Shown here one piece after another: positions 2,866-22,658 of a stretch of DNA of 28,233 bases. Under the pieces are notes generated by a model, which did no database searches, was not told the origin of the DNA, and was given only the letters and a program-made list of their open reading frames with translations. The stretch is from a virus. Where the stretch lies: positions 1-28,233 of IMG/VR virus record IMGVR_UViG_3300035698_000573; one strand, 5' to 3'. Every line of letters starts with the position of its first letter. Positions within the stretch are counted from its first letter, which is position 1. Both the position numbers and the translations under genes were made by a program.

Positions 2866-2874
2866 GGAGATCCT

Positions 2875-3615
2875 ATGTCTGAAAATCCAAAAAGTATCCT
2901 CATTTGTGGTGAATCCGGTCACGGAAAGTCTGCATCACTTTTGGCGATTAAAGATAGAACAGATGTTCTATATTTGAATTGTGAAAATGGTAAACCTTTG
3001 CCATTCAAAAACCAGTTTAAGAAAAAAACAATTACAGATCCTGAAGATATTATTGGCTTCATAGATCAACTTGTTAATCTAGGTGATGAAAATCCCTTTA
3101 ATTTTGTAATTGTTGATACTGTTAGCTTCATGATGGATATGTTTGAACGTGTTCACGTTACAAACTCTCCTAACAGTCAAAAGATGTGGGGAGAGTATGG
3201 TCAATTCTTCCCTCGTCTAATGGATGCAACAGCTAAACTAGAAAACACATTCTTTATTTTCCTTGGTCATCTTGATTCAGTTCTGGATGATGATGAAGGA
3301 ATTATGAAACACAAAGTTCCCGTAAAGGGTGCTTTGTCCAAAAAAGGTATTGAAGCCTTTTTTACTACTGTTGTTTATGTCAAACGAATGAAAGTAAAAG
3401 ACATCTTGAAAGGATGTCCTAATCCAAGTTCGTTGCTAAACATTACACCTAAAGAAGAAACTCAAGGCTATAAGCATGTGTTTCTAACTGAACCTGATAA
3501 GACCACTATCGGAGGTCGTATCAGATCTCCTCTTGGTATGTGGGCTGAAGACGAACTCTACATCGACAACGATGCTGGAGCCGTCATTAAACGATTGGTT
3601 GCTTACTACAAATAA
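2875..3615 (+). CDS. RecA-like/Sak4-type phage ATPase
   Basis: This 246-residue P-loop protein has Walker A G-E-S-G-H-G-K-S at residues 12-19 and a Walker B-like F-V-I-V-D at about 77-81 (D81 followed by T-V-S). Size and layout match the AAA_24/Sak4 group of small RecA-core ATPases used by phages for single-strand annealing or recombination, often encoded beside an SSB as here. AAGGAG at 2864-2869 precedes ATG 2875 by 5 bases and overlaps the stop of the primase gene, so the two are probably translated together. It probably acts on SSB-coated single strands during replication-linked recombination; a helicase-loader role cannot be excluded. Confidence 0.7.
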   Translation: MSENPKSILICGESGHGKSASLLAIKDRTDVLYLNCENGKPLPFKNQFKKKTITDPEDIIGFIDQLVNLGDENPFNFVIVDTVSFMMDMFERVHVTNSPNSQKMWGEYGQFFPRLMDATAKLENTFFIFLGHLDSVLDDDEGIMKHKVPVKGALSKKGIEAFFTTVVYVKRMKVKDILKGCPNPSSLLNITPKEETQGYKHVFLTEPDKTTIGGRIRSPLGMWAEDELYIDNDAGAVIKRLVAYYK

Positions 3616-3682
3616 GATTAATCACTTCTCTTCTTTGGTTTCGACCAAGCACTGTCTCATGAGAAATAAGAAGGAACACAAC
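3616..3682 (+). promoter_or_regulatory. Leader before the SSB gene with small inverted repeats
   Basis: This 67-base gap is the longest on the left arm. It holds a 5-bp stem with a TTCG loop (TTGGT 3635-3639, ACCAA 3644-3648) and a 10-base palindrome TCTCATGAGA (3655-3664), followed by AAGGA (3671-3675) as the ribosome-binding site. An mRNA-level control site for SSB is possible. No convincing promoter was seen. Confidence 0.35.
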
Positions 3683-4492
3683 ATGAGTAATATTTTTGCT
3701 AAAGCTAAACCTGCTGCCGAAAAAGTCGAAGACGACTATGTAGGTGGTGGTGGTGCGCTGGTAACGGATATTTATCCAGCGACAATTAAATATGCCTATA
3801 TTGGTAAAGCTGCTCACAGCGATGCCCGTAGTCTTGTTCTATCACTTAAGATTGGTAACTCTGAAGTTCAGCGTACCATCTGGATGACTGACAAACATGG
3901 CAACGTCACTTACGATGACAAAAAAACCAAAGAAAAGAAGAACCTTCCGGGCTTCAATCAGGTCAACAGTCTTTGTATGCTCATTGCTTCGAAAGAAGTT
4001 GGTAATATGGATGTGGAAGAAAAAACTCTGAATCTATATGACTTTGATTCAAAGAAAGAAATTCCCCAAGCAGTAGACTGCTTTGTAGATCTTCATGGTC
4101 AAAGCATCCAAGTAGCAATTCAACAACAAATTGTTGATAAAACTACTAAAAATGAATCCACTGGTGATTATGAACCTACCGGAGAAACCCGTGTAGTAAA
4201 TGAATTCATCAAATTCTTTCCAGAAGATCGTCTTGTAACTATCAGTGAAGTCGCTCACTTTGTGAAATCCCTTGGTGGTGACTTTGATGAAGTTCTCAAA
4301 GATGGAGATCTGGGAAAAGCTATTTCCAAGATGGAAAACGATGGTGACTATGCAACCACATGGTTGGAGAAAAACCGTGGTGAAACTTGGAATCGTGCTA
4401 CCGGAAATAAGAAAGAAGGCAAAGCCTTCGGTGGTGGCAAATCGTCTGGTGGAGGCGAAAAGAAAGCTAAGTCGAGTCTGTTTGACGATTGA
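3683..4492 (+). CDS. ssb: Single-stranded DNA-binding protein
   Basis: This 269-residue protein starts at ATG 3683 behind AAGGA. The first half (about 25-190) is a mixed beta-rich sequence consistent with an OB fold. The end is typical of phage SSBs: a Gly/Lys/Ser-rich flexible linker (about 235-262, with GGGKSSGGGEKK) and the acidic tip K-S-S-L-F-D-D. Position between the RecA-like ATPase and a RusA-like resolvase fits, and N4 has its SSB (gp45) in the equivalent replication block; in N4 that protein also activates late transcription by host RNA polymerase (recalled). I infer the family from the tail and context, since OB folds have no fixed motif. The stop is 48 bases before the chosen start of the next gene. 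Confidence 0.65.
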   Translation: MSNIFAKAKPAAEKVEDDYVGGGGALVTDIYPATIKYAYIGKAAHSDARSLVLSLKIGNSEVQRTIWMTDKHGNVTYDDKKTKEKKNLPGFNQVNSLCMLIASKEVGNMDVEEKTLNLYDFDSKKEIPQAVDCFVDLHGQSIQVAIQQQIVDKTTKNESTGDYEPTGETRVVNEFIKFFPEDRLVTISEVAHFVKSLGGDFDEVLKDGDLGKAISKMENDGDYATTWLEKNRGETWNRATGNKKEGKAFGGGKSSGGGEKKAKSSLFDD

Positions 4493-4524
4493 TCAAACAT
4501 ATCGAACTTGAAGGTTATACTATC

Positions 4525-4551
4525 AGGGAGTCTCATAATGTGAGGCTCCCT
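4525..4551 (+). promoter_or_regulatory. Hairpin sequestering the resolvase ribosome-binding site and start
   Basis: The arms AGGGAGTCTCA (4525-4535) and TGAGGCTCCCT (4541-4551) form an 11-bp stem with one G-U pair and a 5-base loop TAATG. AGGGAG (4525-4530) is the only good ribosome-binding site before the resolvase, and GTG 4540 starts at the last loop base, so folding would hide both. There is no U-tract after it, so a terminator is unlikely. Translational control is inferred. Confidence 0.6.
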
Positions 4552-5418
4552 ACTTATGAGAATGTTAGTAAAAACAATGTTAAAGCTATCAATCTTAATA
4601 TTTATCGTAACCTTCATCACCATCATCTCAATAACCAGAAAAAGAATTTCCATGATGAGGTGAAGCCTCTACTAAGGCAATTACCCAAGGCAGAGCAGAT
4701 CTGGATCCACTACACGATCTTCGCAGCAAGGAACGGACGTTTAGATACTATGAACATCGGTTCTATCGTGGACAAGTATTTCTCTGACACGATGGTGGAA
4801 GCTGGAAAAATACCAGATGATAATATGCATCATATTGTTTTATCTACTTTTTCCTTTGGTGGTGTTTGTCCAATGGATGGACATACTATCGCAACAATCA
4901 ACATATTAGATAAAGATAAGGAGACACCGCCAATGCGTGTACTACTTGATGAAGATGACATCCAAGCAGCCCTTGATGCTCATGTGAAGAGCTTGAATCT
5001 TCCCGGAGCTACAGGTGTAGAACTCAGCGTAACTGACGATGGAGACATCGAAGCTGAAGTCCTGATGGGTAATGTCAAACCCAAAAGCAGGGGTGGTCGC
5101 CCTCGTGGTTCGAAAACAACCACTACCCGTTCTACTAAGACGGAGATGACTAATGATTCTGAAACTGATTCTGAAGGAAGTAGCGATGGCTCTGATTCAG
5201 GAGGCAGTGACGAATCAGAGGCAGACGTTAAAGAGGGAACGACAGAACCTGTTAAACCCCAAACCAAAGCCGAAAGTGAAGACACCAAAAAGGGAAACCT
5301 TTTCAGGGACGAGGAAACCCAATCCTCGGAATCCGACACCTGTGAAACTGAAGCTCCCAAAGAAAATCTTGCTTCAAAAGTGAAAGTAAAGAAATCGAGT
5401 ATTTTCGATGTTGATTGA
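4540..5418 (+). CDS. RusA-like Holliday junction resolvase with AT-hook and acidic tail
   Basis: Start chosen at GTG 4540, giving 292 residues beginning (V)RLPTYENVSKNN, because AGGGAG lies 9 bases upstream; a TTG at 4489 overlapping the SSB stop is the alternative. Residues 1-120 follow the RusA pattern: N-terminal basic/Asn-rich strand-helix, then D-T-M-N-I-G-S-I-V-D-K at about 70-80 and an A-G-K-I-P-D-D-N motif, matching RusA's D-x-D-N-L-x-K ... D-D pattern in which the Asp residues bind metal. RusA normally ends near 120. Here about 170 residues follow: an unrecognised segment (125-180), an AT-hook-like G-G-R-P-R-G-S-K (about 185-192), a long Ser/Asp/Glu-rich stretch, and a tip K-K-S-S-I-F-D-V-D nearly identical to the SSB tip. 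It probably resolves branched replication intermediates before packaging. Confidence 0.65.
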   Translation: MRLPTYENVSKNNVKAINLNIYRNLHHHHLNNQKKNFHDEVKPLLRQLPKAEQIWIHYTIFAARNGRLDTMNIGSIVDKYFSDTMVEAGKIPDDNMHHIVLSTFSFGGVCPMDGHTIATINILDKDKETPPMRVLLDEDDIQAALDAHVKSLNLPGATGVELSVTDDGDIEAEVLMGNVKPKSRGGRPRGSKTTTTRSTKTEMTNDSETDSEGSSDGSDSGGSDESEADVKEGTTEPVKPQTKAESEDTKKGNLFRDEETQSSESDTCETEAPKENLASKVKVKKSSIFDVD

Positions 5419-5636: not shown

Positions 5637-8600
5637 TTATCCATTCAACAGATTAACCCATGGGTTAAGTTCAGGTGCTGTAAACAACATCTCATAACCT
5701 GTTGAATAATCAAGATTACCTGCTCCAATAACTGAGAAGATGTTATCTTGAATTGGAGTACCCAAGTCTTCAAATGGGAAATTGATAGCAAAGGATCTAA
5801 CAGGGTTATCTCTCATCTGTTGCAGTGCAATTTTTGCAATACGCAATTTGCAAGCCATAAACCAACTTAGACCATTCTTTTCCAATCCAGAACGAACACG
5901 ACCCGGCTGCGTAGTAAAGTTCACGAATTCTTCGTTGATCTGAGCAACAGCATCCTCAGGAGTAAAGCCCTTCGCAAGAAGGTGGTCGTAGTAAATAGCT
6001 TTACCCAAGAAGTCACCATACTGAGTTGCCCTATTAGCAACCTGATACATTTTGGTAGACTTCGAAACCAACCCATATTTAGCAATAGTCGATACACCAT
6101 CTGGCAGTTTCTCTGCCAATTGTTCAACATAATCTCCAAGCTTACCAGTCGTAATATCCTGATCAAACTCAGTAATACCTTCAGACAAAGCTTTATAAGC
6201 CCCAGCTTTAATCATTGGAGCAATAGACATTTTGTTATTCAGATCTCTGATAACTCTCATCTTCTCTTCAATAATACGTTTCTGGTTTGCATCTTTAGCT
6301 CTCAGCTTAAGTTGTGCATCAAGTTCAATCAGAGTGGTTACATTATGGTTATACTTCTCCACTTCAGCCAACTTCCTACGGAAATCTTTCACAATAGATT
6401 TCAAAGGTACACCACGAGTAACCAACTGAGCAATGTTAGACTGGAAGTTCATTGCAGGGATAATCAACGATTTCACAATGATAATGTCTTTAGCAGTAGA
6501 CACAGCCCCTTGCAGGATGCCTTCAGCCTGTACAACACGTTTCATAGCACTCCTGCCCATAAACAGATGTGTCGTCTCACGGACCACTGTACGGACTTCT
6601 GAAGGCATACGAGATTTACCAGTCCACATGTCAGCAACAGATGGTTCTCTATAGCCTACAGCCAAGTTAATCTGATCAGTACGTACCATCATACCCTCAC
6701 CATCAAATTTCGTATCAATATACGCTTTGATATTTTGAGGAATCAGATCGAACGATTCTTTGTAGATTGGATCTTTAGACTTCTTTATGTTCTCAAAAAG
6801 CTTATCAGAACCTTTCTCTCTAGTCTGCCAAATACGAGCCAATTCATCTACCAATTGCATGTTATAATGATAAGCAGTGGTTTCTTCCACATGTCTACCA
6901 GCCCATGCACCCAGCATGATTGCAAGGTTTTCTTCACGCCCCATATGTTTTTCAATAACATCAGGGTTCAAAGATCTTTCAAAACCAGACACAGTACCGT
7001 CTCCTGCAAAAACAGGAATCCATGTTTCTTTATCATTTGCCAAAGTAAAGCTGGGTTTATTGAAAGTATCAATTGCTTTATCAACAACTCCATCTCCACT
7101 GATGTAACCAGTCGTTTCACCATTCACAGACAAACCAGTATTACTATCAACACCTCTATAAGTAGCCGCTACGTTCTGCATTGTACCCTGTGCATACTGC
7201 CCCGAAACTCTTATATCAGTGGTGTAATAAGATCTGGTCACAACACTATTGGGATCACCAGTAAACTCTCCAAGTTTAATATAACCTTGAGACTTACGCT
7301 TCAGTTCATTTGAATTCAAATCCACAATGATACGAGTGTTTTTAGCACCCTCATTGGGAATATAACCTTTATAAGCATTCAAACGAGCAACTTCAGTAAT
7401 ACCCGGTTTGCTTTCTTCAGCCTCATTAAGACCTTGGATATAAGTCACAATTTGTTCAATAGCTTCAGGATCCGAAGCATAGAGATCACTTACAGCTTGT
7501 CTCTGATCTGGATCCATCATGTCGATAGCATAGATAGAAATCAGTTCATCCAAAATTGAAACCAAAGTAGGATCAAAGGTTCCATCAAGATTTTTAGCAA
7601 TAGCATAAGCATTACGCACCAAGAGTTTACCTGCTCCTTGATTTGTCATGAACTTAGCAAGTTGCTCTGCTTTATCTTTTGCATCTTGTGCAGTCGCAGG
7701 AGTCAGTTTGTTTTCAATCTGACTTTCCAAAGCACGAATACGTTCATTACGATAAGACAAATCACTCAACAAACTCATAGACTTATCCATGAAATCTGTA
7801 TCAATCACTGATACAAAATCAGTTTTAGCAATGGTATTAAACATAGCTTTCCACTGAGTTTTAGTTGGTTTGTTAGTAAACAGTCGTGCCAGAATACCCG
7901 GAAGATCTTCACGATAAGCCTGACGCATACCAGAGATAGCAGCGTTTACTTGGTCTTGAAGAGCAACAATCTTAGTATTGAAACGATCTGTACCAACAAT
8001 TTCAGACACCATTTCCCGAATAGGAATCAGTGTCATAAAGGGAAGACCCATGTGAACAACATCTTTAACTTTCTGGTTCGTCAAATCTGTACCAGCTTTA
8101 TCAAGATAGTTAGTTCCAAAAGTCAGCAAAGAAGTCAGATGCTTCCGAGTTTTACTTCTAGTAGATGCTTTGGTTTCACGATCAGTTCTTCTCATCAGAT
8201 CATCAGTTTTTCCAAACACACCAGATACATAATTATCAGCCGCTTCAAAAGAAGAAGTTACTTTATTCAACAAAGCATATTCTCTTTCTTTATCATGCTC
8301 AACAATTGTAGCAGCCAGCATATCCATCACACTAGATGCATTACCACTTTCTGCCAGACTACCAGTCATGTTTTGCATCAGCAGTGCAGAGAATTGGGTC
8401 AATGTATTTTGAAGACTTGCAGATTGTCTCTGAGTTTCTGGTTCAGGAATCTGATCCAACACACTACGAAATTTAGCCGAAGTCTGAGACAAACCAAGAA
8501 GAACAGAGATTGAGTTAATCATGTCTCTATTTCTATCATCACCAAAAGCATTCATCACAGCAGAGTATTCTTGTGCTGCTTCTGGACCAGTTCCAAACAT

Positions 8601-11600
8601 TTCAGGAGTCATATTATCTACAATATGATTGAACATATTTGTCATTGCAATCAGAGGCTGACTCTTCAATGAAATCGCAGAGTTAATAACACCATAGATT
8701 GCTTTAAATGTCAGACGTGCATTTGCATTAGACAACATATTTACCTGACGCAGATCATTTACAATCCGGTCAACTGCTTCTCTTGCTTTGATCTGTTCAT
8801 CCATCTTGAACATCTTTTCAGATGGACTCAGATTATCCAGATAATCAGAAATCAAATTGATCCAGTAATTGGTATAGTTATTGGCAGTTGGGGTTACTTC
8901 TCCACCTTCATTATCAATACTACCACCATCACCATTACCACCATCTTCAGTGTTTTCATCCACTGGACCTTCAACAAGAACCTTGGTGTTAAAGACAACC
9001 TGATCAAACATCGACTCTGGGATACCTCCCATAAGTCTACGCATCAGACGAATTACTTTATCAGCCAAATCTTTAAGAGTATTAGTTTTGGTGTTCTGAG
9101 TTTTCTTTCTCACTTCTGAATCCGACAGCACATAAGCCATAAGCTCATTCACAGCGGCTGCTTTAGAGAATGGGTCAGTCTTACTCTGTCTACGCAAGAT
9201 AGCTGCCTGAGCCTCTCTCACACGCTCTCCACCCTCAATCTGAAGGAACTCTTCCATAAGAGCTTCCAGACGAACGATTGCATCATTTGGTTTACCTTCA
9301 TAATGATCAAGAACCTTCTTGAACGTAGTAGCATGAACCAATTCATGAAGAACAGTTGTAGGATTACTAGTGGTCAGAAACAGAATATCATTCTGAGCAT
9401 CATAGTAACCTTTAGCAGAATTCAGAATCTCACCACTGTCAGGGAGATTATCAATTCTCCACTGATTGAGTTGTCCTTGAGTACCCATAATTACACGAGT
9501 ATCACCAATCAAAGGACTAATGATATTCAGTACAATCTTTTGTGCATCAGTAAACCGCAAAGCTTTAACCACAGCTTTAGCAGTACTTTCACGTACAGGT
9601 TCAACTACATCTTCAGGTGTATTCACTACTGCTTCTGTAGATGGATTTTTCATCTCTTTATCAATCATCTGATTTAAAGCCGTCAAACCAATCTCAGTAT
9701 CTCCACGAGAATGACCCACAGCAGAACCACCCATCTGATCAACAGATGAACTAATACGTTTGAATACCACTTTACGAGCACGACTAGCTTTCAGTCGATT
9801 ATCCAATTGAGACATAACTTGTTCATTAGAATTAGCAGTAATGGTCATATTTTTGTTTTTATCTTTGACGGTTTTGAATGCAACATCCAGAGCAGTTTTA
9901 TCCACCGTAGGATTATTCATAAACCCACGGAAGTTTTCTACACCCATAGAAAGAACATCTCTTTCCCACGATTGCCGAACAGCTTCGTTAATACGAGGAC
10001 CATATTCTTTGAGCTTAGTTACAGGAATATCCAAACCATCAAAGATACCCAGAACATCTTCTGGAGCATTTGGATCCGAGAAGAATAGGTTCATCATCAT
10101 TGCATCACCAGTACCAATAATAATGAAGGGAAGTGCTTTTACCCCTACATCTTCAGGCTGACGAAGCATTGGTTTTTGATTCAAAGAGTTATCCATAGCA
10201 GCAGACAACACAGTCCAATCACTTGCAATACGAGTTTCAAATCCACCAATAGCAAGTGTCTGATCATCTGATCTAAAGATTGGAGACATAGCTGCAAGCT
10301 CATCTACAATCTTGTTATATTCTTCCATTGGAATGTCAGAAATAACAGGAACCATTTGTCCTTCTTTATTTTTACGACTACGAATTTTACCTTCATTACT
10401 AAGTTGTTTAGCAAGAGCATCTATTCTCTGAATAAACAACGTATTCAAGTATTGAGCTTGAATATTAGTAGACATAACCAACAGATCATTCAGTTCTGTA
10501 ATTTTTGTTCCAAGAGTTTCTTTTGCAGCTTCTGTCAAAGCTTTACCAATTGTATTGGTAATCACTTTTCTAAAAAGAGCTTGTTCTGATTTAGAAAACT
10601 CCCAGCTATTACTACGATTATCTGTAGGAATATTCACACCCAGAGTTTGAAGATCTACAACCAGATCTCCATCATAAGCTACTTTATTCAAATCATAATT
10701 GGCTTCATGAAGTTTTTGATAAAACATAATCATCATATCATCAGCCAAACCAGTACCAACACCTTTGACCCCAGAACCATAGTTTACTTTAGTCATAGGA
10801 TTTTTGGCAGAATTACGAGTCATTTCAAATGTCCCGGATTCTGGATTGTAAGCAAAGTCACCAAACCAACCTGCAAATCTACGTGCAGCAGCAACTTCTA
10901 CCCCCATTTTTTCTTGGGTCATTTTAATAAGTTTAGCTTGAGCAGTACGAGACACAGTTTCATAGAGATCCAAGTTTCCTTTGACCCCAAAGAAATCATT
11001 TACAGTCTTATTCACTTTACCAATAAAATATCCAATACGCTCAAGATTATGGTATTCATTTGGTCCAAGTTCACCTTGACCATAATTAACCATCATGTTG
11101 GCTGCACCATTAGTCAGACCATCCAGTTCTACAGAAAGACTAGATCTGAACGAAGTTTCACCACGTTCCTTAGCAAGTTCCATTTGTGCAACAGTATGAA
11201 TAGCAGCCAGAACTTGAGGTTCTACTTCGGTAGCAGTACCAAGAACAGCTTGAGCAAAAGCATCTCCATCAATTGAAGTACCATCTCTCAAGAAATCTTT
11301 AATGATGTTCTTGGCATTTCCATATTTAGTTTCAAAGTCATCTCTAACAGTGCTGAGAATCACAGCATGATTCTTCTTTTCCAATTTATGAAGTCCAGCA
11401 GCCTGAGCAACACCCAACCATATATCATCTTCTTGAGTAGCAAGATCTACATTAGCCCACGTTGTACCAACAAGAGCACGAAGGATCTTGTTACTTTGAG
11501 GGTTTACCCCTTGGTATTGGTGACGACCGACAGAAGTGATACCCACCGGGTAATATACAGGGACGGTGCCATCTGCCAAAGCATCGGTGAGAGTCTCTGC

Positions 11601-14600
11601 ATCAGCAAGAGAGTTCTCAATTGAGATGTTTTTACCCATGATTGAACGACGAAGTGTTCCATTAGGATAAGTCTCCTCATTAACATTCTCCACATACCCA
11701 AAAAGAGTACGAGGAGTTTGTGCTCCAATAGCATGAAATACATTAACACGTTCTTCATCTTTATAGTGAGGTGTATTTTGCATCTTACGAACAGCAGCTT
11801 TTTCTCTTCTACTCAGATTAATATTTGATCTATCTTGAGTTTGAGGAGTTCCTTTGATCTTTTGACCAATGGAATAACGCTCACGCTCTTCACCAAACAG
11901 ATATTCTTTAGCAGAGTTTTCCATATCTGCTTCAGCATTATCTCTGATCTCTTTTTGGATCTCACGAATCTTCTCCATATTCAGCATAATGGTTTCTGTT
12001 TTACGTTTGATAATAACCTTTTCACCTGTTTCTGGATCTGTTTTCGATTGATCCAGTTGAGTCAATTCAATGTTTTTAATCGTAATATAGTCTGTAGTCG
12101 CGTCTAGAGCGACCAAGAGTTCAGCAGCAATACCTTCAGCAATACCAAAAATCTCACCCATAGATTGAGTATTGTTAGGAGTTACACCCCACATTTTCAG
12201 AATAGATTTTGCCAATTGGTTCTTCAAAATAGAAGGTGCAATACCATACGTCATATTCAAAAGATCATCATCATTGATGTCTACATAAGAAAGACCTTGT
12301 TTTTCCAATGTATCAATTTGACGACTAGGATCATTTGGAGAAACAATAGCCAACCAATCAACTACAGCAAGAGTTGCCAGTTCCATTAGTCTTTGATCAA
12401 ACTTACCAGTTTCAGGATCAGCAATAGCTGTCCCTCTATATCGGGCAATTTCTTGGATACTTCCATTCTTCAACAGATACTTCAAAGTTTGATGTTTACC
12501 ATCAATCTGAGTTTTCAAAGTTGCCAGACGTTTATTCATATTACCAATCAGCATTGGAGCCAATGCTTTAGTAATGACAAGAATAGACGGATTTAGTTTT
12601 CCATCAGCTTGGCTTCTGGTTTCCAGATCATCCAAGCTTTTAGGGGCATTACTATTTGGATTAGACTTATAAGCTTTATCAAACAGTGGATAGATTATTC
12701 CGTCTGCGGTACTGACATCGGTGTCGGTGTTCCCTTCGGTGACGGCAGAGGTTTCTTGGACACTGGAGGAGGATTCTTGGGTGGTGTCTTCAGATCCAGT
12801 TCTAGTTGCTTCTCTTGGGCCATATACAGACTCCATCAATTGTCTTGTGTAAGGTGTATTATTAAACACATCAGGATCATTTGAGTAATGCAACTCAGTC
12901 AATACAGCAAAGATTTCCTTTGCCTGATCATGAGATCCTTCATCATAACCTTCAATCATTTCGATACGTTCTTGAACGAATTTCTTTTGATTCTTTAGAA
13001 CACTAAGTTCATTGAAGATTTTTCCATTAGGATAGAACAAACGAGATTCACTAAACCATTTACCTTGAGTAAGTTCAGGATCTCCTTTGTAATCAATAAT
13101 ATGACCAACTTCATGAACAATCACTGCTTGACCACGAGCAGTAAGTTCATTGTTAGAATCAAACATATCTTCACGGAGGTAAATAGTTTGACTATCATAC
13201 CAGACATATCCAAACCCACGTTTGGAAGTTTTCTTGTAGACTTGAATATCACGAACAACTTTATTGTTTACTTCACCCATCAGAGAAGTAATCACATCAC
13301 GAACATTCAAACGACGAGTATTAAGATCTTTTAGTTCAAGATCCTTTTTCATTTCTTCCAAGAAATTATCTTCAGTCAGATCAGAATCATCAATCTGCTC
13401 ATCAGAAATAGTTTCTTCACTTGTCGTAGATTCTTCAGTCGCTACCGCGCCTTCATCATCTACTCCAACTTCAGAGACTATTTCTTCTTCGACAACCGTT
13501 GGAATATTATCCCTAATTGCCATAAGAATACGTGGAAACTCTTTTCCCCAAATACCTTTATCTTGGGTATGGGTAATTACCGCATTACCTGTATCACGCA
13601 ATGCTTTCATAGCTTGTGAATTAACAGCAAAAGAAGCTTTCATCAAAGCTTCCATTAGTTGAATATTATACCCACCATCAGTCTTTGTGCCTTTGTTGCC
13701 AGCAATCTTTTTGCTTTCCCCACGAACATATTTTTTATGGGTTTCTGGATCAAATTTACCAGACTTCAAACTTTGATATGCATGTTCAACCGAAAAGTAT
13801 CCACGACCTTTATAGTTAAAAGGACGAGGTGCTAGATTACTAAGAATTCTATTTTCATTGGTTCCAGCCCATACATTTACAGGTGCAGGATTTTCCACAT
13901 CTTGTTGAATGATATTGATACCATCATAGTTCTTAGTCACAACCATGACTTCACCATCTGGACCACGAACAATAGCCCCATCGTGTCCATTCTCTTCGAG
14001 AATCTGATTCAGTGCTTCTTGGTTATTAATCCAAAACTGATCAGGAGCTTGATCTTTAGAATCAAATTCACGAGGTTTCTTCAGAGTAACAGCAGCCTCT
14101 TTTACATGAGGATTCTTAGCACCTTTCAAGCGAGTAAGTTTTGCATATTGCTTTGCCAGTGCAATACTATTTGTAAAGAATGCACCTGTTTTATCCTGAA
14201 GATTTTCACCTTCACGTTTCTTATCAAACGATTCAAAACGACGACCAGTACCATGATACAGTTGAAGAGTCTGTTCTTTCGCAGGCTTACCACGATCAAG
14301 ACCTTCTGAAAGTGTTGGTGTCTGCTCGTCAGAAATTTCTTGCGAAATTTCCTCCTCGACAGCCGTTGGGTTTTGGCGTTCATTTTGAATACTAACAATA
14401 GCCAATAGATCTGCACGTCTGTTTTCAACCAAAGAACGAGCTTTAGCAATTCTGTTAATATAAAGATTACCCTTTGTACCATCATCATCTCTAGCTGCTT
14501 CTGCTTCAATTTTATCTTGACGCTGTTTAGCTTGAGTAAACTGATTTTCAGCAAAAGTTCTTTGTTTAGCCAAAGCTTTATCATCTAAATCTTTATATAG

Positions 14601-17435
14601 ATTTACCAGCTTTGGATCAGGAGTATTCTTTTCTGTTTCAGTTTCAGCAGGTTTAGTTTCAATGTATTCAGGATCACTAAAGTCATCAACCAAAGTGTTC
14701 TGAAGTTCTGTAGGAATCTGAGAAGAAGTATTGTTATCTTTCTTAAGTTGAACCAAGTCAGGAACAACAAGCCCGTCAAAGACTTCGGGAAACGCTTCCG
14801 AAAGAGTTTGGTACAGTTCATATGCTGTCTTGGTATTGCTCTCAATTTCTTGAGCCAATGCAATAGAACCCGGACTACCTCTATGGTATGTCAGAGCACT
14901 AGCTCCCGGACTCCAATTCTCAGGATCTACCCAAGTATTACCATCCATAAGCATACGGAATTTCTGTGCATTACCAGTCAGCTTTCCACGAGAGTTAGGG
15001 GTATTGCTATCGTAAGAACGATTCAATGCATCAACACGATTATTCATATGTTCCAAGAACATAGCAAATTGTTTTGCTACTTCTTTAACAGGAATAACCA
15101 TTTGATCAGAGTTCATAAATGTCCCATCAGGAGATTGAACACCTACAATAATATCAGAAACAAAATCATTCAAAGAACGAAGTTTCTTTCCAGTCGCAGA
15201 AATATAACCATCAGCCATAATACTACGATTGGTTTTATCTACATTGGTAAGAGCTTTGCCTTTTTCTCCAATGGCTTCGAGACTAATGTTACGAGCTTCT
15301 TTAATACCCACTACATCACCAACAGCTTTGTTGATAATTGAAGCAACCTTAGAAGCTACACCAAGAAACTTTTTATCAGTTTCAGAGATATTCTTTCCAG
15401 ATTGTTCAAGAATTTTCTTAACCCCATCAGGGTTAACATTAGCAGGATTAGTTTTTGCTACACTGATTGTTATAGGTACTTCCTGTCCAGCAACAGGAGT
15501 AACAGAATTCAAATCAATTTTAGCTGCATCAGCCAAAGTCTTTTGTACCGCAGATGAAGCAAGAAGATCTCCAACTTTTTTCTTAGCAGCTTCAGGCATG
15601 GAATTAACCATACCAGACAATGCTTGAAATTGAGATGCAGCATAAGTTTTATCTTCATCAGTTGGTTTAAATTTACGATCCCCCATTTTCTGCAACAGAC
15701 CACTAGCTCTTTGCAGAATAGGTTGAGAAGGATTCACAGTGTCAGCAAAACCAGAAGACACATCAATTGTATCTGCTTTTTGGATTGCTTTTGTAACTTC
15801 AGGAGTCAGAGTATTATTCAAGATTTCCTGTTCAACAATACCAGCAGCTTCTTGAGCAATAGCTACATCTTTATTAACCTGTTCTCTTTCATCACGAGTA
15901 TTAAAGTCTGTGACAGCATCTCCAACTGCCGTAGCAGCTTTAGTTGCAATTGGTTGAGTAAGATCCACCAAAGCATCAGTAGCAGGTTGTACAACCTTAC
16001 CAACACTTTGTGCGTCTTTCTTAGCTTGAGACCCCAAACCACTCATAACTTCAGCACCGAATTCTCCAGCACGGAAAGCAGCAGATCTCTTACCCATAAT
16101 AGAATCTGTCAGAGGATCATTAAATCTAGTCTCTTCAAGCAATGCATCAGCAGCCGCTCTAGGAGCGTTCAAGGTGCCTATAATAGCAGCAGGGGTTGCA
16201 GCTACCCCAGCCGTACCCATACCTGCCAGAGCACCAATAGCGGACTCCTCACCAACACCTTCCAATGTATCTCTACCAATTTGAGTATATTCTGCTACAG
16301 CAAGGTTACGATTAATAGTACCTGTTGCACCTTGTCCGGCTTCTTCAATCCCTTCTCCAACAATAGAAAGAATACCTCTTGTCAAACCAGACTCAAGGAA
16401 AGAACCAATAGGCATAGCTTCAAATTTAGAAGTAATAAAACCAAGAATAAAAGTATAAGGAAGTTGACTAATCGCAGCAGTTTCAGCAGTCATACCTGCC
16501 AACTGTGTCCGAGCTTCTTCAGGTGTCATACCTTCTTCATTAATCAGAGCATTAAAAATAGAAGAAGACTGAGACAATGTTTCAAGTGGAATCGACATAA
16601 CATCTTGAACAGCTTCAGAGTAAACACCTGAAACTTCTTGTAAACCTGCACCAGCAGATTGACCAAAAGTAGCCGCAACTCTTTGTGCTACCAAATTACT
16701 AGTAGCAGCTTTAGTCATACCTTTTGCAATTAAACCACCAGTTCCTGCAAGTGGTGCAGAAGCAAACAATGAACCAACACCTTCAGCAATAAGATTACCT
16801 GCTAAAGATGGATCATTCTGCATACGCTCAAGAGCGTTTATAGCATTACGACCTTCACGACGAAGACCAGCCATCAAAGGTGAAGTACCAGTTTCAACTT
16901 CTTTTTCATAAAGAAGTTGTTCATTTTCTTTTTGAAGTTCACCTTCAACAGCAGAAAAATACTTCTTACTTTGAATCTCTTCAGTAAGATTTTCTTGAAA
17001 CATACCCTCAACAATTTGATTGTGAGCTTGATTCAATTCAGCAGCCCTAGATGTACCAGTAGTTGTAGGATCACCATCTAAAGCACCTTCAGCATAACCA
17101 TATGCCAAAGTTCCAAGATTACCAATGTCTCTATAAAGAGCCGTAGCAGCACTTACAGCACTATCTGAAATAGCTCCTACCGTGCTTCTTTCCATAGAAT
17201 CTGAACGAGAAAGTCTATTAGAACCTTGACCTATACGCCAAGCTTCTTGTTGTACATTCTGACCATATTTATTCAGAAGTTGAACATCACTCATCGTAGT
17301 TAAATCACGAGAGACTTGATCATCTCCTAGATCTACTTCACGGTTCTGAGCGATAGCTAGTTTATCTTGATAAGCTGGATTCCGAAGACGGGCAGCAATC
17401 ATTTCAAAGGCAAGTTCTTCATTACGGTCAGCCAT
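5637..17435 (-). CDS. Giant virion RNA polymerase with polyvalent effector domains (N4 gp50-like)
   Basis: This 3932-residue protein starts at ATG 17435 (AGGA 8 bases upstream). Order of domains: N-terminal part with Gly/Ala-rich hydrophobic segments (about 205-430); ADP-ribosyltransferase-like domain (1058-1180, H1061); NADAR domain (1187-1310); zinc-protease-like domain (HEVGH 1441-1445, E1507); RNA polymerase (about 1547-2560); second zinc-protease-like domain (HELVH 2697-2701, E2764); Gly/Asp-rich linker near 2840; long helical C-terminal part. Polymerase motifs are T-S-V-G-R 1967-1971, motif A D2105 in D-G-L-T-N-G, motif B R2207-xxx-K2211-x7-Y2219-G, and motif C D2466. Recalled catalytic positions in N4 mini-vRNAP (R424, D559, K670, Y678, D951) give spacings 135, 111, 8 and 281; here they are 134, 106, 8 and 255. 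In N4 this protein is packaged and injected to transcribe early genes. The extra length over N4 (about 3500) lies N-terminal to the polymerase, where the ART, NADAR and first protease sit. Confidence 0.9.
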   Translation of the reverse strand: MADRNEELAFEMIAARLRNPAYQDKLAIAQNREVDLGDDQVSRDLTTMSDVQLLNKYGQNVQQEAWRIGQGSNRLSRSDSMERSTVGAISDSAVSAATALYRDIGNLGTLAYGYAEGALDGDPTTTGTSRAAELNQAHNQIVEGMFQENLTEEIQSKKYFSAVEGELQKENEQLLYEKEVETGTSPLMAGLRREGRNAINALERMQNDPSLAGNLIAEGVGSLFASAPLAGTGGLIAKGMTKAATSNLVAQRVAATFGQSAGAGLQEVSGVYSEAVQDVMSIPLETLSQSSSIFNALINEEGMTPEEARTQLAGMTAETAAISQLPYTFILGFITSKFEAMPIGSFLESGLTRGILSIVGEGIEEAGQGATGTINRNLAVAEYTQIGRDTLEGVGEESAIGALAGMGTAGVAATPAAIIGTLNAPRAAADALLEETRFNDPLTDSIMGKRSAAFRAGEFGAEVMSGLGSQAKKDAQSVGKVVQPATDALVDLTQPIATKAATAVGDAVTDFNTRDEREQVNKDVAIAQEAAGIVEQEILNNTLTPEVTKAIQKADTIDVSSGFADTVNPSQPILQRASGLLQKMGDRKFKPTDEDKTYAASQFQALSGMVNSMPEAAKKKVGDLLASSAVQKTLADAAKIDLNSVTPVAGQEVPITISVAKTNPANVNPDGVKKILEQSGKNISETDKKFLGVASKVASIINKAVGDVVGIKEARNISLEAIGEKGKALTNVDKTNRSIMADGYISATGKKLRSLNDFVSDIIVGVQSPDGTFMNSDQMVIPVKEVAKQFAMFLEHMNNRVDALNRSYDSNTPNSRGKLTGNAQKFRMLMDGNTWVDPENWSPGASALTYHRGSPGSIALAQEIESNTKTAYELYQTLSEAFPEVFDGLVVPDLVQLKKDNNTSSQIPTELQNTLVDDFSDPEYIETKPAETETEKNTPDPKLVNLYKDLDDKALAKQRTFAENQFTQAKQRQDKIEAEAARDDDGTKGNLYINRIAKARSLVENRRADLLAIVSIQNERQNPTAVEEEISQEISDEQTPTLSEGLDRGKPAKEQTLQLYHGTGRRFESFDKKREGENLQDKTGAFFTNSIALAKQYAKLTRLKGAKNPHVKEAAVTLKKPREFDSKDQAPDQFWINNQEALNQILEENGHDGAIVRGPDGEVMVVTKNYDGINIIQQDVENPAPVNVWAGTNENRILSNLAPRPFNYKGRGYFSVEHAYQSLKSGKFDPETHKKYVRGESKKIAGNKGTKTDGGYNIQLMEALMKASFAVNSQAMKALRDTGNAVITHTQDKGIWGKEFPRILMAIRDNIPTVVEEEIVSEVGVDDEGAVATEESTTSEETISDEQIDDSDLTEDNFLEEMKKDLELKDLNTRRLNVRDVITSLMGEVNNKVVRDIQVYKKTSKRGFGYVWYDSQTIYLREDMFDSNNELTARGQAVIVHEVGHIIDYKGDPELTQGKWFSESRLFYPNGKIFNELSVLKNQKKFVQERIEMIEGYDEGSHDQAKEIFAVLTELHYSNDPDVFNNTPYTRQLMESVYGPREATRTGSEDTTQESSSSVQETSAVTEGNTDTDVSTADGIIYPLFDKAYKSNPNSNAPKSLDDLETRSQADGKLNPSILVITKALAPMLIGNMNKRLATLKTQIDGKHQTLKYLLKNGSIQEIARYRGTAIADPETGKFDQRLMELATLAVVDWLAIVSPNDPSRQIDTLEKQGLSYVDINDDDLLNMTYGIAPSILKNQLAKSILKMWGVTPNNTQSMGEIFGIAEGIAAELLVALDATTDYITIKNIELTQLDQSKTDPETGEKVIIKRKTETIMLNMEKIREIQKEIRDNAEADMENSAKEYLFGEERERYSIGQKIKGTPQTQDRSNINLSRREKAAVRKMQNTPHYKDEERVNVFHAIGAQTPRTLFGYVENVNEETYPNGTLRRSIMGKNISIENSLADAETLTDALADGTVPVYYPVGITSVGRHQYQGVNPQSNKILRALVGTTWANVDLATQEDDIWLGVAQAAGLHKLEKKNHAVILSTVRDDFETKYGNAKNIIKDFLRDGTSIDGDAFAQAVLGTATEVEPQVLAAIHTVAQMELAKERGETSFRSSLSVELDGLTNGAANMMVNYGQGELGPNEYHNLERIGYFIGKVNKTVNDFFGVKGNLDLYETVSRTAQAKLIKMTQEKMGVEVAAARRFAGWFGDFAYNPESGTFEMTRNSAKNPMTKVNYGSGVKGVGTGLADDMMIMFYQKLHEANYDLNKVAYDGDLVVDLQTLGVNIPTDNRSNSWEFSKSEQALFRKVITNTIGKALTEAAKETLGTKITELNDLLVMSTNIQAQYLNTLFIQRIDALAKQLSNEGKIRSRKNKEGQMVPVISDIPMEEYNKIVDELAAMSPIFRSDDQTLAIGGFETRIASDWTVLSAAMDNSLNQKPMLRQPEDVGVKALPFIIIGTGDAMMMNLFFSDPNAPEDVLGIFDGLDIPVTKLKEYGPRINEAVRQSWERDVLSMGVENFRGFMNNPTVDKTALDVAFKTVKDKNKNMTITANSNEQVMSQLDNRLKASRARKVVFKRISSSVDQMGGSAVGHSRGDTEIGLTALNQMIDKEMKNPSTEAVVNTPEDVVEPVRESTAKAVVKALRFTDAQKIVLNIISPLIGDTRVIMGTQGQLNQWRIDNLPDSGEILNSAKGYYDAQNDILFLTTSNPTTVLHELVHATTFKKVLDHYEGKPNDAIVRLEALMEEFLQIEGGERVREAQAAILRRQSKTDPFSKAAAVNELMAYVLSDSEVRKKTQNTKTNTLKDLADKVIRLMRRLMGGIPESMFDQVVFNTKVLVEGPVDENTEDGGNGDGGSIDNEGGEVTPTANNYTNYWINLISDYLDNLSPSEKMFKMDEQIKAREAVDRIVNDLRQVNMLSNANARLTFKAIYGVINSAISLKSQPLIAMTNMFNHIVDNMTPEMFGTGPEAAQEYSAVMNAFGDDRNRDMINSISVLLGLSQTSAKFRSVLDQIPEPETQRQSASLQNTLTQFSALLMQNMTGSLAESGNASSVMDMLAATIVEHDKEREYALLNKVTSSFEAADNYVSGVFGKTDDLMRRTDRETKASTRSKTRKHLTSLLTFGTNYLDKAGTDLTNQKVKDVVHMGLPFMTLIPIREMVSEIVGTDRFNTKIVALQDQVNAAISGMRQAYREDLPGILARLFTNKPTKTQWKAMFNTIAKTDFVSVIDTDFMDKSMSLLSDLSYRNERIRALESQIENKLTPATAQDAKDKAEQLAKFMTNQGAGKLLVRNAYAIAKNLDGTFDPTLVSILDELISIYAIDMMDPDQRQAVSDLYASDPEAIEQIVTYIQGLNEAEESKPGITEVARLNAYKGYIPNEGAKNTRIIVDLNSNELKRKSQGYIKLGEFTGDPNSVVTRSYYTTDIRVSGQYAQGTMQNVAATYRGVDSNTGLSVNGETTGYISGDGVVDKAIDTFNKPSFTLANDKETWIPVFAGDGTVSGFERSLNPDVIEKHMGREENLAIMLGAWAGRHVEETTAYHYNMQLVDELARIWQTREKGSDKLFENIKKSKDPIYKESFDLIPQNIKAYIDTKFDGEGMMVRTDQINLAVGYREPSVADMWTGKSRMPSEVRTVVRETTHLFMGRSAMKRVVQAEGILQGAVSTAKDIIIVKSLIIPAMNFQSNIAQLVTRGVPLKSIVKDFRRKLAEVEKYNHNVTTLIELDAQLKLRAKDANQKRIIEEKMRVIRDLNNKMSIAPMIKAGAYKALSEGITEFDQDITTGKLGDYVEQLAEKLPDGVSTIAKYGLVSKSTKMYQVANRATQYGDFLGKAIYYDHLLAKGFTPEDAVAQINEEFVNFTTQPGRVRSGLEKNGLSWFMACKLRIAKIALQQMRDNPVRSFAINFPFEDLGTPIQDNIFSVIGAGNLDYSTGYEMLFTAPELNPWVNLLNG
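9036..9578 (-). other. Zinc-protease-like domain 2 of the vRNAP
   Basis: Residues about 2620-2800 contain T-V-L-H-E-L-V-H-A-T (His 2697 and 2701, Glu 2698) and a likely third ligand E2764 in N-E-L-M-A-Y-V-L-S-D. This H-E-L-x-H ... N-E-x-x-A-Y layout is typical of metallopeptidase domains in polyvalent proteins. It follows the polymerase by about 230 residues. Confidence 0.75.
9756..12797 (-). other. T7/N4-type single-subunit RNA polymerase domain
   Basis: Residues about 1547-2560. T-S-V-G-R-H...V-N-P-Q-S-N parallels T7 R-G-R-V...F-N-P-Q-G-N. Motif A is L-D-G-L-T-N-G-A-A (D2105). Motif B is R-N-S-A-K-N-P-M-T-K-V-N-Y-G, the same R-x3-K-x7-Y-G pattern as T7. Motif C is G-I-F-D-G-L-D (D2466), where T7 has H-D-S. 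Boundaries are estimated from N4 spacing. Confidence 0.9.
12816..13316 (-). other. Zinc-protease-like domain 1 of the vRNAP
   Basis: Residues about 1374-1540 hold V-I-V-H-E-V-G-H-I-I-D-Y (His 1441 and 1445, catalytic Glu 1442) and a likely third ligand E1507 in A-K-E-I-F-A-V-L, the usual gluzincin layout. It lies just before the predicted start of the polymerase module. Substrate unknown; self-processing or a host protein are both possible. Confidence 0.7.
13394..13503 (-). repeat. Linker repeat, copy 2 (after NADAR)
   Basis: This encodes a linker with P-T-V-V-E-E-E-I ... T-I-S-D-E-Q. Two blocks, 13480-13503 and 13394-13409, are near-identical in DNA to blocks in the linker before the ART domain (14321-14370) and occur in the same order. 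The spacing between blocks is longer in this copy. Confidence 0.7.
13506..13877 (-). other. NADAR domain (YbiA-like) of the vRNAP
   Basis: Residues 1187-1310 show the YbiA/NADAR pattern: N-x-W-A-G...L-S-N-L-A-P-R-P-F, then G-Y-F-S-V-E-H-A-Y-Q-S-L-K, a Lys/Arg-rich middle, A-L-M-K-A-S-F, and a final D-K-G-I-W-G-K-E-F-P-R-I-L-M. NADAR proteins are linked to NAD/ADP-ribose chemistry, and some remove ADP-ribose from guanine in DNA or RNA. It directly follows the ADP-ribosyltransferase-like domain. Confidence 0.85.
13896..14264 (-). other. ART-PolyVal-like ADP-ribosyltransferase domain of the vRNAP
   Basis: Residues 1058-1180 start with L-Y-H-G-T-G (H1061), followed by F-x-x-F-D, a G-A-F-F-T segment, A-x-x-Y-A and a late H-D-G-A-I-V. 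These match the ART domains described in phage and plasmid polyvalent proteins, where the His and Tyr bind NAD and a later Glu/Gln completes the site; the third residue is not certain here. Such domains transfer ADP-ribose to host proteins, nucleic acid or small molecules. Target unknown. Confidence 0.7.
14321..14370 (-). repeat. Linker repeat, copy 1 (before ART)
   Basis: This encodes P-T-A-V-E-E-E-I-S-Q-E-I-S-D-E-Q just before the ADP-ribosyltransferase-like domain. On the + strand, 14345-14370 matches 13480-13503 with only a few differences (ATTTCxTCxTCGACAxCCG), and 14321-14336 matches 13394-13409 with one or two differences. Confidence 0.7.
16146..16823 (-). other. Hydrophobic Gly/Ala-rich segments in the vRNAP N-terminal part
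   Basis: Residues about 205-430 contain three stretches rich in Gly, Ala, Leu and Ile with few charges (for example VGSLFASAPLAGTGGLIAKG and IGALAGMGTAGVAATPAAII), with an aromatic one (LPYTFILGFITSKF) between. They could insert into or cross the host membrane during injection. This is inferred from composition only. Confidence 0.5.
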
Positions 17436-17500: not shown

Positions 17501-19435
17501 TTATCTTCGTGCTTGTTCAATTGCTGCCAAGTGAGCATCCAAAGCAACCATTTGAGCTTCCCAAATAGTTCGTCTTGGATCTCCTTCAGGAAGTTTACTA
17601 ATTTTCTGACGAAGAAGGTCTTGCTGACCACGAACCTGTTTCATTTGTTGATTCATAATATCTAAATTAGATTGACCACGTTCATAATTTTGACGTGCAT
17701 TAGGATTCAGCTTTTTAGCTGCTTCCTCAACATCAGCAAATACAAAACGATTACGCAAAGTATTTGGTGTCAGATCCATATCATACCAGAAACTAGAGTT
17801 TTCATCATCACCCGGATCTCTTTTAAACGAATCTCTCATTGCCACTGCAACAACAGCAGGTTCAATATTCAGTTTAAGTGCATATTCATTAACAAGATTT
17901 CTAAGCAAATTCCCATCATATGCTTTCAAAGATTGTGGATCATTCGGCAAACCAAGATCACTTTCAAGACTTGCAGCAGGGTCTTCAGCATATCTACTAA
18001 TTTCACTAATAGCTCTATTTTGATCTGTACTATCAAATCGTCTTTGAGCATCTGTTACAGTATTTTCAACAGCAGCATCTCTTTCCAAATCTTGAGCAAC
18101 AGTTGGTGCAAGCTGACTTTGCAAACCTTCAGAACCAGCAATAATAGATTCAGCAGCTTGTTGAAGATCAAGCAATTCAGAGCTACTAACTTGTCCAGAA
18201 GCTCTTTCAGTAACTTCTTTCATAACAGCAACATCAGTTGTGTTTTCAGGATTAGAAATAGCTTCCATAGTAAGTTGTGCAGTCAAATCTTTAATCTGTT
18301 GTGCAACTTCACCAGCAATACGATCATCACCTCTTTTAGTAGCTGCATCACTACCATTCAGAATAGAATCAACATCTTCCAGTGAAAGATATTGAGACTG
18401 TGCAACAGCCGCTGCAAGAACATCCCTAGAAGTAGTTCCACTTCTTGGATTATTAACTTGAGCAGTAGCTTGTGTTACATTGATAGAACCATCTTTATTT
18501 TGATATTGAGAAGAATTAGCAACAGCAGTTTTCAGCCATTGAGGTGCATTTTTATCTTTACCTCCTGCTCCCCATACAGCAGTAGGACCACCTCCAATAT
18601 GGAATCTACCTGCACCCATATAGTCATCACCAGCACCAATTCCGGTAACACCATTAGCACGAGCACGACCAACAATTTCTTCTAGAACAGGAAGATCCTG
18701 TGAATTGTTCCAATCAAGTTTTCTATCACCCATGTAGAAATCTACATCAGCAGCATTACCATGATCATGTCTTTCACTACCTACTCTTTTAGCTCCCGGA
18801 GTGCCTTTAGCCTCTTGTCCACCAGAAACAACATTCATACGAATTCCCATGTTTTCAAGGAAACTCATTTGACCAATTAGTTCATTACTAATTGGTTTAT
18901 TTCTCGTAGCATTTTGATTGTCATAAGTTAGAAACGCAGGATTACCTGATGGAGTCTGACCATATGTTCCATTTTGTTGTCCTTCCAAACGAGCAGCAAC
19001 AACTTCATCAGACAAACCAGCCAATTCATTACGACGATTATTACCATAATCCCAATCACCTTGAGCACGGTTATTAATAGAATTAGCAATACCCAAGCGA
19101 CCTGATCTATCAGCCATGATAGATTGGTTATTTTCCAAACTTCCAGCTACAGTATTACGACCTGTAACCTGATTAAGAATATTCTCAGAAACTTGACGAC
19201 CTTTAAGACCACCATTCTTAAAATATGCATCAATTTCTTCTTGAGTATTCAAAGCAGCAATTTCATTACCAACTTCAATATCATTCTTTTTAACCCTGCC
19301 TTCTTCATATCTTCCAAGAATACTGGAAGCAGCATCAGCAGCATTATTCAATGCATCATTAGCACCGCTCATAAGACCTGATACGTTAGGTGCAGCAACA
19401 TTAAGTTGTTTCCATTGAAGTCTAGGATCAGCCAT
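17501..19435 (-). CDS. Virion protein with M15-type (D-Ala-D-Ala) peptidase domain
   Basis: This 644-residue protein starts at ATG 19435 behind AAGGAA. Residues about 190-290 carry an M15/VanY-like signature: V-V-S-G-G, then H223-D-H-G-N-A-A-D230 (exact HxxGxAxD), V-T-G-I-G-A-G-D-D-Y, and R-F-H279-I; H223, D230 and H279 would bind zinc. M15 enzymes cut peptidoglycan cross-links, so the protein may open the cell wall during DNA injection. The rest is helical and Gln/Ala-rich, as in podovirus internal or ejection proteins. It sits directly before the virion polymerase gene, the place of N4 gp51 (recalled). A stand-alone endolysin is less likely, given the size and late structural context. Confidence 0.7.
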   Translation of the reverse strand: MADPRLQWKQLNVAAPNVSGLMSGANDALNNAADAASSILGRYEEGRVKKNDIEVGNEIAALNTQEEIDAYFKNGGLKGRQVSENILNQVTGRNTVAGSLENNQSIMADRSGRLGIANSINNRAQGDWDYGNNRRNELAGLSDEVVAARLEGQQNGTYGQTPSGNPAFLTYDNQNATRNKPISNELIGQMSFLENMGIRMNVVSGGQEAKGTPGAKRVGSERHDHGNAADVDFYMGDRKLDWNNSQDLPVLEEIVGRARANGVTGIGAGDDYMGAGRFHIGGGPTAVWGAGGKDKNAPQWLKTAVANSSQYQNKDGSINVTQATAQVNNPRSGTTSRDVLAAAVAQSQYLSLEDVDSILNGSDAATKRGDDRIAGEVAQQIKDLTAQLTMEAISNPENTTDVAVMKEVTERASGQVSSSELLDLQQAAESIIAGSEGLQSQLAPTVAQDLERDAAVENTVTDAQRRFDSTDQNRAISEISRYAEDPAASLESDLGLPNDPQSLKAYDGNLLRNLVNEYALKLNIEPAVVAVAMRDSFKRDPGDDENSSFWYDMDLTPNTLRNRFVFADVEEAAKKLNPNARQNYERGQSNLDIMNQQMKQVRGQQDLLRQKISKLPEGDPRRTIWEAQMVALDAHLAAIEQARR

Positions 19436-19446
19436 ATCAGTATTCC

Positions 19447-19911
19447 TTATAGACGGTTTTTATCAAGATACGCATCAGTTTCTCCACCACTTTTACCTTC
19501 AGTAAAGTGACGAGATCTAATCCTATCTTCCAACGCGGTATTATAGGTTTGTGTTTGGTTTGCAAGGTTAGTGTCCCATTGCTCACGAGCAAACGACATT
19601 TGATCCTTAGCCATTTTATGCTGTTGATAAGTGGACCAAAGGTTCCCTAGAACCTGTACACCACCTAGAATCAAACCAGCACCACCATCTTTAGACCAGA
19701 AGTTTCCTGCTCCACCAGTTTGAGCACCTGTCTGTCCAGACCCACTAAGGACTGTTTGAGTAGGAGTTGTACCCATTCCAGACAGATTAGTACTACCAAC
19801 ATTGGTATTTACATTCTGCCCCATAGAAAGGCTATTAGCAGCAATACCAGTAGTTCCCAATTGAGAACCATTGGTAGTAGCATTGGAGTAGTTCCCAAAT
19901 GAAAGATCCAT
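19447..19911 (-). CDS. Small virion/ejection-type protein (154 aa)
   Basis: No family recognised with certainty. Residues 1-75 are Gly/Ser/Thr/Asn/Gln-rich and low in charge; residues 76-90 (GGAGLILGGVQVLGN) are a short Gly-rich hydrophobic stretch; residues 95-130 form a probable charged helix (MAKDQMSFAREQWDTNLANQ). This layout is common in small podovirus internal head or ejection proteins. ATG 19911 is preceded by AAGGAA lying in the end of the upstream 913-residue gene, with only 3 bases between the genes. The position and size recall N4 gp52, from memory. Confidence 0.5.
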   Translation of the reverse strand: MDLSFGNYSNATTNGSQLGTTGIAANSLSMGQNVNTNVGSTNLSGMGTTPTQTVLSGSGQTGAQTGGAGNFWSKDGGAGLILGGVQVLGNLWSTYQQHKMAKDQMSFAREQWDTNLANQTQTYNTALEDRIRSRHFTEGKSGGETDAYLDKNRL

Positions 19912-19914
19912 AGT

Positions 19915-22656: not shown

Positions 22657-22658
22657 CC

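Follow-up and report, generated by a model that had tools for sequence, protein, structure and literature searches.

An N4-like virion RNA polymerase with ADP-ribosyltransferase, NADAR and zincin domains and short DNA seams at module borders

The locus and its virion RNA polymerase

The window analysed here spans an entire IMG/VR viral record (28,233 bases) and covers the late structural block of an N4-like phage together with part of its replication block. Its principal genes are:

649 to 5418, plus strand: primase, Sak4-like annealing protein, a 319-aa ORF in the SSB position and RusA-like resolvase (window gene annotation)
5637 to 17435, minus strand: virion RNA polymerase (vRNAP) gene, 3932 aa (phrog_2206, E = 0 over residues 3–3931; Pfam vRNAP_dom, E = 2.3e-41)
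17501 to 24017, minus strand: structural genes in the positions of N4 gp51, gp52, gp53 and gp54, upstream of the vRNAP gene and ordered as in roseophages and N4 (phrog_2646, phrog_2220, phrog_2050)

The minus strand also encodes the major head protein, and no integrase was found among the identified genes of the window. The 319-aa ORF is assigned as the SSB by gene order alone. The order gp53-52-51-50, followed by an opposed SSB/Sak4/primase block, is that of the Schitoviridae, and on sequence grounds the phage is N4-like (Schitoviridae) and near the roseophages (Rhodovirinae). The vRNAP ORF contains no internal stop and encodes 3932 aa from an ATG, or 3941 aa from an upstream GTG. Three of its regions have counterparts in N4 gp50:

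14676 to 17435, minus strand: N-terminal domain, residues 1–920, aligning along its length with 13 vRNAPs including that of N4
9729 to 11804, minus strand: N4-type single-subunit RNA polymerase region, residues 1878–2569 (Pfam vRNAP_dom, vRNAP_dom_2 and N4_RNAP_helical; six catalytic residues)
8946 to 9518, minus strand: universal vRNAP zincin-like C1 region, residues 2640–2830, with HELVH at 2697 (vRNAP comparison; N4 C1 domain)

The catalytic residues R424, D559, R666, K670, Y678 and D951 of the N4 mini-vRNAP align with R1971, D2105, R2207, K2211, Y2219 and D2466 of the window protein, and each is conserved in essentially all of 90 aligned vRNAPs (89–90). This alignment bears out the first-pass annotation, which had placed the catalytic motifs of an N4/T7-type RNA polymerase in one 3932-residue protein; the two distances it gave also hold exactly, with motif C 1466 residues from the C-terminus and TxxGR displaced by ∼550 residues away from the N-terminus relative to N4. 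Identity to the window across the polymerase core is 59% for the Dinoroseobacter phage DFL12phi1, 42–48% for most other Rhodovirinae, 37% for phiCB2047-B and 26% for N4.

Two HExxH domains had also been listed for this protein. Both are present, but the second, at residue 2697, belongs to the ordinary C-terminal region and is common to all 13 vRNAPs first compared, including N4 (position 2228). A recent structure of the N4 protein, which is ejected, places a zincin-like C1 domain at residues 2124–2375 (PMC12633501). By homology to N4, we infer that the window vRNAP would likewise be packaged and ejected with the DNA. Beyond the polymerase motifs, N-terminal domain, C1 zincin-like domain and C2 that it shares with the window, N4 gp50 differs in lacking the ART, NADAR, first protease and seams described below.

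A variable cassette of effector domains

In an alignment of 14 vRNAPs, residues 1–920 and 1600–3932 align throughout, and residues ∼920–1600 form a variable cassette at the border between the N-terminal domain and the mini-vRNAP. The window cassette is 781 aa long, against 250 aa for the counterpart stretch of N4, and is the longest of 60 non-redundant complete cassettes (range 148–781 aa). It contains, in order, a seam with a hairpin, an ADP-ribosyltransferase (ART), a NADAR domain, a terminal seam and an M90-like zincin:

14353 to 14369, minus strand: seam 1, CCAACGGCTGTCGAGGA, encoding PTAVEE, residues 1023–1028 (motif and codon analysis)
14331 to 14352, minus strand: hairpin after seam 1, GGAAATTTC-GCAA-GAAATTTCT (inverted-repeat analysis)
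13896 to 14288, minus strand: ART-PolyVal ADP-ribosyltransferase domain, residues 1050–1180, with H1061 and D1152 (Pfam; fold matches)
13503 to 13883, minus strand: NADAR domain, residues 1185–1311, with E1217, K1224 and H1289 (profiles, tblastn, predicted fold)
13486 to 13502, minus strand: seam 2, CCAACGGTTGTCGAAGA, encoding PTVVEE, residues 1312–1317, without a hairpin (motif and codon analysis)
12801 to 13280, minus strand: M90-like zincin domain, residues 1386–1545, with HEVGH at 1441 (Pfam M90; relatives; fold)

The extra length of the protein thus lies where it had been predicted, in a cassette whose ART, NADAR and first protease are missing from N4. The ART, first proposed as ADP-ribosyltransferase-like, scores 45.4 bits against Pfam ART-PolyVal (cut-off 31.2; E = 1.9e-11), and its predicted fold matches MbcT, ParT and tankyrase. 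Residues H1061 and D1152 are present and aligned in all ART-bearing relatives; the strand-2 residue, Tyr in the published H-Y-D triad of strands 1, 2 and 5, is apparently F1087 here, and is Phe in the relatives too. The zincin contains HExxH and falls just under the Pfam M90 cut-off (25.2 against 26.2 bits), which aligned relatives exceed (e.g., 48 bits in L018), and its predicted fold matches the anthrax LF zincin and an M90-type hydrolase.

The NADAR domain is present as proposed, despite a Pfam score below the curated cut-off (24.3 against 35.1 bits; E = 4.3e-5). It matches phrog_1017 (E = 9e-10) and, by tblastn (1e-17), the NADAR of crAss-like phage cr126_1, its best phage match and closest described relative, which itself scores 51.6 against Pfam NADAR. 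A PDB sequence search with the domain alone gave no match. Its predicted fold (pLDDT 83.7) has just two significant PDB matches, YbiA and a NADAR with ADP-ribose (2b3w, E = 1.3e-5; 8bau, E = 5e-4; probability 1.00). E1217, K1224 and H1289 correspond to the E, K and H that are invariant in 31 of 31 aligned members; mutating the corresponding catalytic E88 (to Q) or K95 impairs the E. coli C7 NADAR (PMC11543638). The base composition of the domain matches the rest of the gene, with no sign of a foreign segment.

Cassette content varies strongly among N4-like vRNAPs. By motif count, 11 of 31 Rhodovirinae-like cassettes contain the ART-type YHG[TS] and 20 of 31 contain HExxH; neither motif occurs in the 29 other N4-like cassettes. 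NADAR appears in one cassette of 60, that of the window. It is absent from 77 N4-like loci scanned, and a single-sequence search of viral contigs found no further N4-type vRNAP with a window-type NADAR. These counts answer the concern that the same domains might occur in all N4-like vRNAPs. The cassette is probably an exchangeable effector unit between N-terminal domain and polymerase.

Three further cassettes are of note. One of the 29 other N4-like vRNAPs, with a core 23% identical to that of the window, has a sub-threshold ART-PolyVal match (L071, 8198–9376; 27.7 against 31.2 bits), so the ART may not be confined to Rhodovirinae. Outside the Rhodovirinae-like group, one N4-like cassette bears a weak match to GNAT acetyltransferases (L080, 7685–9370; Pfam E = 0.006, below cut-off). 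The L027 cassette (7535–9478) contains a ParB-like stretch by eye, with no Pfam match.

Several of these components have been described together before. N4-like RNAPs fused to metallopeptidases, with an added ART in that of Roseovarius Plymouth podovirus 1 (RPP1), were published in 2017 as polyvalent proteins, with N4 gp50 and the RPP1 vRNAP as examples and RPP1 as the prototype (Iyer et al. 2017, PMC5512222). The window protein likewise carries several conflict-type domains in one chain, with delivery predicted by homology to N4. The RPP1 protein shares its N4-type RNAP, ART-PolyVal (about 60% identical in the core), M90-like zincin, C-terminal zincin and seams. It differs in lacking NADAR, its ART being followed directly by the terminal seam. 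NADAR goes unmentioned in the polyvalent-protein paper (PMC5512222). The suggestion that the combination was undescribed therefore fails for ART, metallopeptidase and N4-like RNAP and stands for NADAR, which is apparently undescribed there in the open-licence literature searched. NADAR in an N4-type vRNAP and the seams both appear to be new, and to go beyond published work.

NADAR in injected giant proteins and its possible role

A 2022 survey found phage NADARs to be typically standalone (PMC9503650). We searched viral contigs with the window and cr126_1 NADARs and obtained 33 viral loci, nearly all in very long ORFs. In cr126_1, a 2402-aa protein has NADAR at its N-terminus and matches the phi14:2 virion RNAP (PDB 6vr4, E = 9e-15). 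The motif DFD[IV]D, embedded in a crAss-type catalytic loop, occurs in 24 of the 33 loci under the standard code and in two more with a recoded stop, against 0.23 expected from shuffled sequences, and a profile of the regions bearing it matches PDB 6vr4 (E = 3.9e-68). At least 26 of the 33 loci of this NADAR subfamily are thus crAss-type virion RNAPs, an enzyme unrelated to the N4 type. The cr126_1 protein (gp003) illustrates the comparison: it shares the NADAR subfamily (38% identical) within a virion-type RNAP chain, but its polymerase has an unrelated fold (DFDID, double-psi barrel), its NADAR is N-terminal and the exact seam 16-mer was not found in it. Because NADAR precedes the polymerase in some crAss-type loci and follows it in others, more than one joining event is suggested. 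In a reverse scan for crAss-type RNAPs, NADAR was present in six of 80 loci and in the same ORF in all six, a ratio that is no fair frequency because the query came from NADAR-bearing polymerases and one contig entered twice (L165 is the L125 contig).

In a NADAR tree, the window groups with L102 and with the crAss-type RNAPs L148 and L149 (support 96/91). Of the five standalone phage NADARs, four lie apart from the giant-protein group and one, on a very long branch, cannot be placed reliably. The nearest relative in bacterial genomes, 60% identical, is part of a polyvalent-type protein encoded on a Zoogloea MAG contig (L282); several of the remoter ones are small standalone ORFs. Judged from these sequences, the typical setting of the subfamily is an injected giant protein, in most cases a virion polymerase. 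Because L102 and L282 have no recognised polymerase, the association is with giant injected proteins more than with polymerases as such.

Some of these loci have further peculiarities. The 2801-aa giant protein of L102 (5261–13666) has neighbours that match no PHROG. The Zoogloea protein (L282, 9001–9390) is apparently frameshifted after NADAR, with chromosomal genes adjoining and, by eye, an ASCH-like stretch preceding. Three Oafivirinae crAss-like loci (L098, L099 and L100) encode NADAR within giant proteins of the virion block, 1401 to about 6400 aa long, and have TAG codons in frame within the NADAR or next to it.

We think it rather probable that the vRNAP serves as a delivery vehicle with an exchangeable cassette, in which the ART acts on host proteins, NADAR clears guanine-ADPr and the seams serve as swap points. 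The vRNAP would be ejected with the DNA and start early transcription, and the cassette would ride along. During the opening minutes the ART would modify host proteins, like T4 Alt; a T4 Alt-like role, host modification alongside early transcription, has been proposed for the ART of RPP1 (PMC5512222). NADAR would strip ADP-ribose from guanine of the incoming template or transcripts, undoing a DarT1-type host attack at the polymerase, and the zincin may trim the vRNAP itself or a host target. The guanines modified by host DarT1 are in single-stranded DNA, and the N4 vRNAP works on a single-stranded template. Because target and template are both single-stranded, a NADAR carried by the polymerase would be in the right place to act. 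If so, the first enzyme that the phage brings in carries its own tool against ADP-ribosylation of DNA or RNA. A more specific version, in which N4-type and crAss-type RNAPs separately acquired NADAR to clear guanine-ADPr ahead of them and roseophages swap modules through a hairpin seam, is possible and we hold it tentatively.

The biochemistry of NADARs is consistent with the clearing of guanine-ADPr. Every E. coli NADAR tested, whether of the host or of a phage, removes ADP-ribose from guanosine or guanine (PMC11125620, PMC11543638), and guanosine-ADPr is a substrate of a phage NADAR, the group whose third residue is His (PMC11125620). That activity gave no protection against DarT1 in E. coli (PMC11125620).

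NADAR could instead serve as an antidote to the ART of the same phage, the two forming a writer/eraser pair that limits or reverses ADP-ribosylation once infection is established. Seams 1 and 2, at residues 1023 and 1312, bracket the ART and NADAR jointly, and the two domains adjoin with no seam, nor any convincing remnant of one (CCTGCACCTGTAAAT), between them. In myxobacteria, moreover, a YbiA-type NADAR is the antitoxin to an H-Y-[E/D/Q] ART (PMC11125620). We nonetheless regard this pairing as unlikely: ten of the 11 N4-type cassettes with this ART lack NADAR, and an unsystematic look found no such ART beside the NADARs of crAss-type RNAPs or of L102 and L282. Equally doubtful is the destruction of soluble ADP-ribose-type alarm signals of host NAD-dependent defences in place of nucleic-acid marks. 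This has been proposed as the main role of phage NADARs in a survey of viral proteomes (PMC9503650), but every NADAR tested in another study acts on guanosine-ADPr (PMC11125620), and fusion to two unrelated template-bound polymerases suggests action near nucleic acid.

Seams at the module borders

The pattern [PTS]T[AVL]VE[ED] occurs 26 times in cassette linkers and not once in the other 220,156 residues (0.155 expected). Its DNA is MCAACGGYTGTCGARGA, with Thr ACG and Val GTC in 20 of 21 copies; in the window gene, ACG makes up 7% of Thr codons and GTC 9% of Val codons. Across 214 loci, the exact 16-mer is confined to N4-like vRNAP loci and always lies in cassettes; the many exact matches outside vRNAPs in the wider viral contigs look like chance. 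Seams are absent from N4, RHEph22, Axy10 and phiCB2047-B, and the strict protein pattern occurs in none of the 29 non-Rhodovirinae-like cassettes, one of which (L065) has a looser STVVEE match in different codons. An early promoter was considered and rejected, because the exact 16-mer occurs only twice in the complete EE36phi1 record, both times in the vRNAP gene.

Directly after many seams comes an inverted repeat with arms of 6 or 9 bp around a 4-nt loop, as in EE36phi1 (GGTTTCTGC-GCCA-GCAGAAACC) and L047 (GGATGTCGC-GCCA-GCGACATCT). The hairpin tends to be present at entry seams and missing from the final seam ahead of the M90 domain. We assessed pairing in 38 elements picked by the 17-mer and not by the hairpin. 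Hairpin cells are paired in 64.7% of cases against 47.1% in shuffles, and the covariation score is 0.442 against 0.199 in shuffles and at most 0.18 in register slides; neither pairing nor covariation was reached in 500 shuffles. RNAalifold returned no consensus pairs for all 38 motif-chosen elements, a null that arises because a good part of them lack the hairpin, and the direct pair count is the fairer test. By its sequence, the seam appears to be a new 17-bp DNA element, followed in many copies by a covarying hairpin.

Read as protein, PTAVEE might be a linker motif, e.g., a cleavage site for the phage zincin, with no DNA element involved. Its confinement to cassettes (26 copies, none in the 220,156 residues outside) is compatible with this, as is the proposal that polyvalent metallopeptidases release domains (PMC5512222). 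Such a linker explains neither the ACG and GTC codons of 20 of 21 copies, which in nine sampled copies from seven genes have a chance of about 10^-20.7 under each gene's codon usage, nor a hairpin that covaries though the encoded peptides differ, and we consider it quite improbable. The ART-NADAR-seam join is known from one metagenomic contig, itself a 28-kb fragment, but an assembly chimera is most implausible given an intact ORF, a NADAR with the composition of the gene, a perfect in-frame seam directly 3′ of it and flanking modules that match roseophages.

Seams as a DNA element have partial parallels. Rickettsia palindromic elements occur within coding sequences, whose reading frame continues through them. 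Tagged REPs, which are bacterial palindromic repeats, share the arrangement of a short tag and a palindrome (PMC3733652). Seams differ from bacterial palindromic repeats in being confined to one gene and to module borders, with no transposase seen.

Comparison of relatives indicates, at sequence level, that module gain and loss takes place at seams. The vRNAPs of EE36phi1 and DSS3phi2 share the ART, zincin and seams at module borders with the window. Where the window has NADAR, EE36phi1 has a 154-aa seam-to-seam module and DSS3phi2 has none. The two genes are 91% identical before the seam and 88% after it; EE36phi1 is longer by 462 bp that keep the frame, and the seam is precisely where the two blocks of the alignment overlap. 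L018 and L044 have both seams in common, and L044 is about 414 bp longer between them; the M90 domain is kept in L018 and missing from L044.

The modules themselves are diverse. That of EE36phi1 (L006, 6970–7432) has no Pfam or PHROG match; it looked NADAR-like in global alignment, yet proved not to be NADAR. L044 carries a different module of ∼138 aa between its seams (8168–8585), without an assigned family.

Seams are a possible route for in-frame gain and loss of enzyme modules in giant proteins and a search handle for further injected counter-defence enzymes, and they raise the question of the recombination machinery that acts on them. We conjecture that they may be swap points for annealing-type recombination via Sak4 and RusA. 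In the roseophages we looked at, both proteins are encoded near the vRNAP gene.
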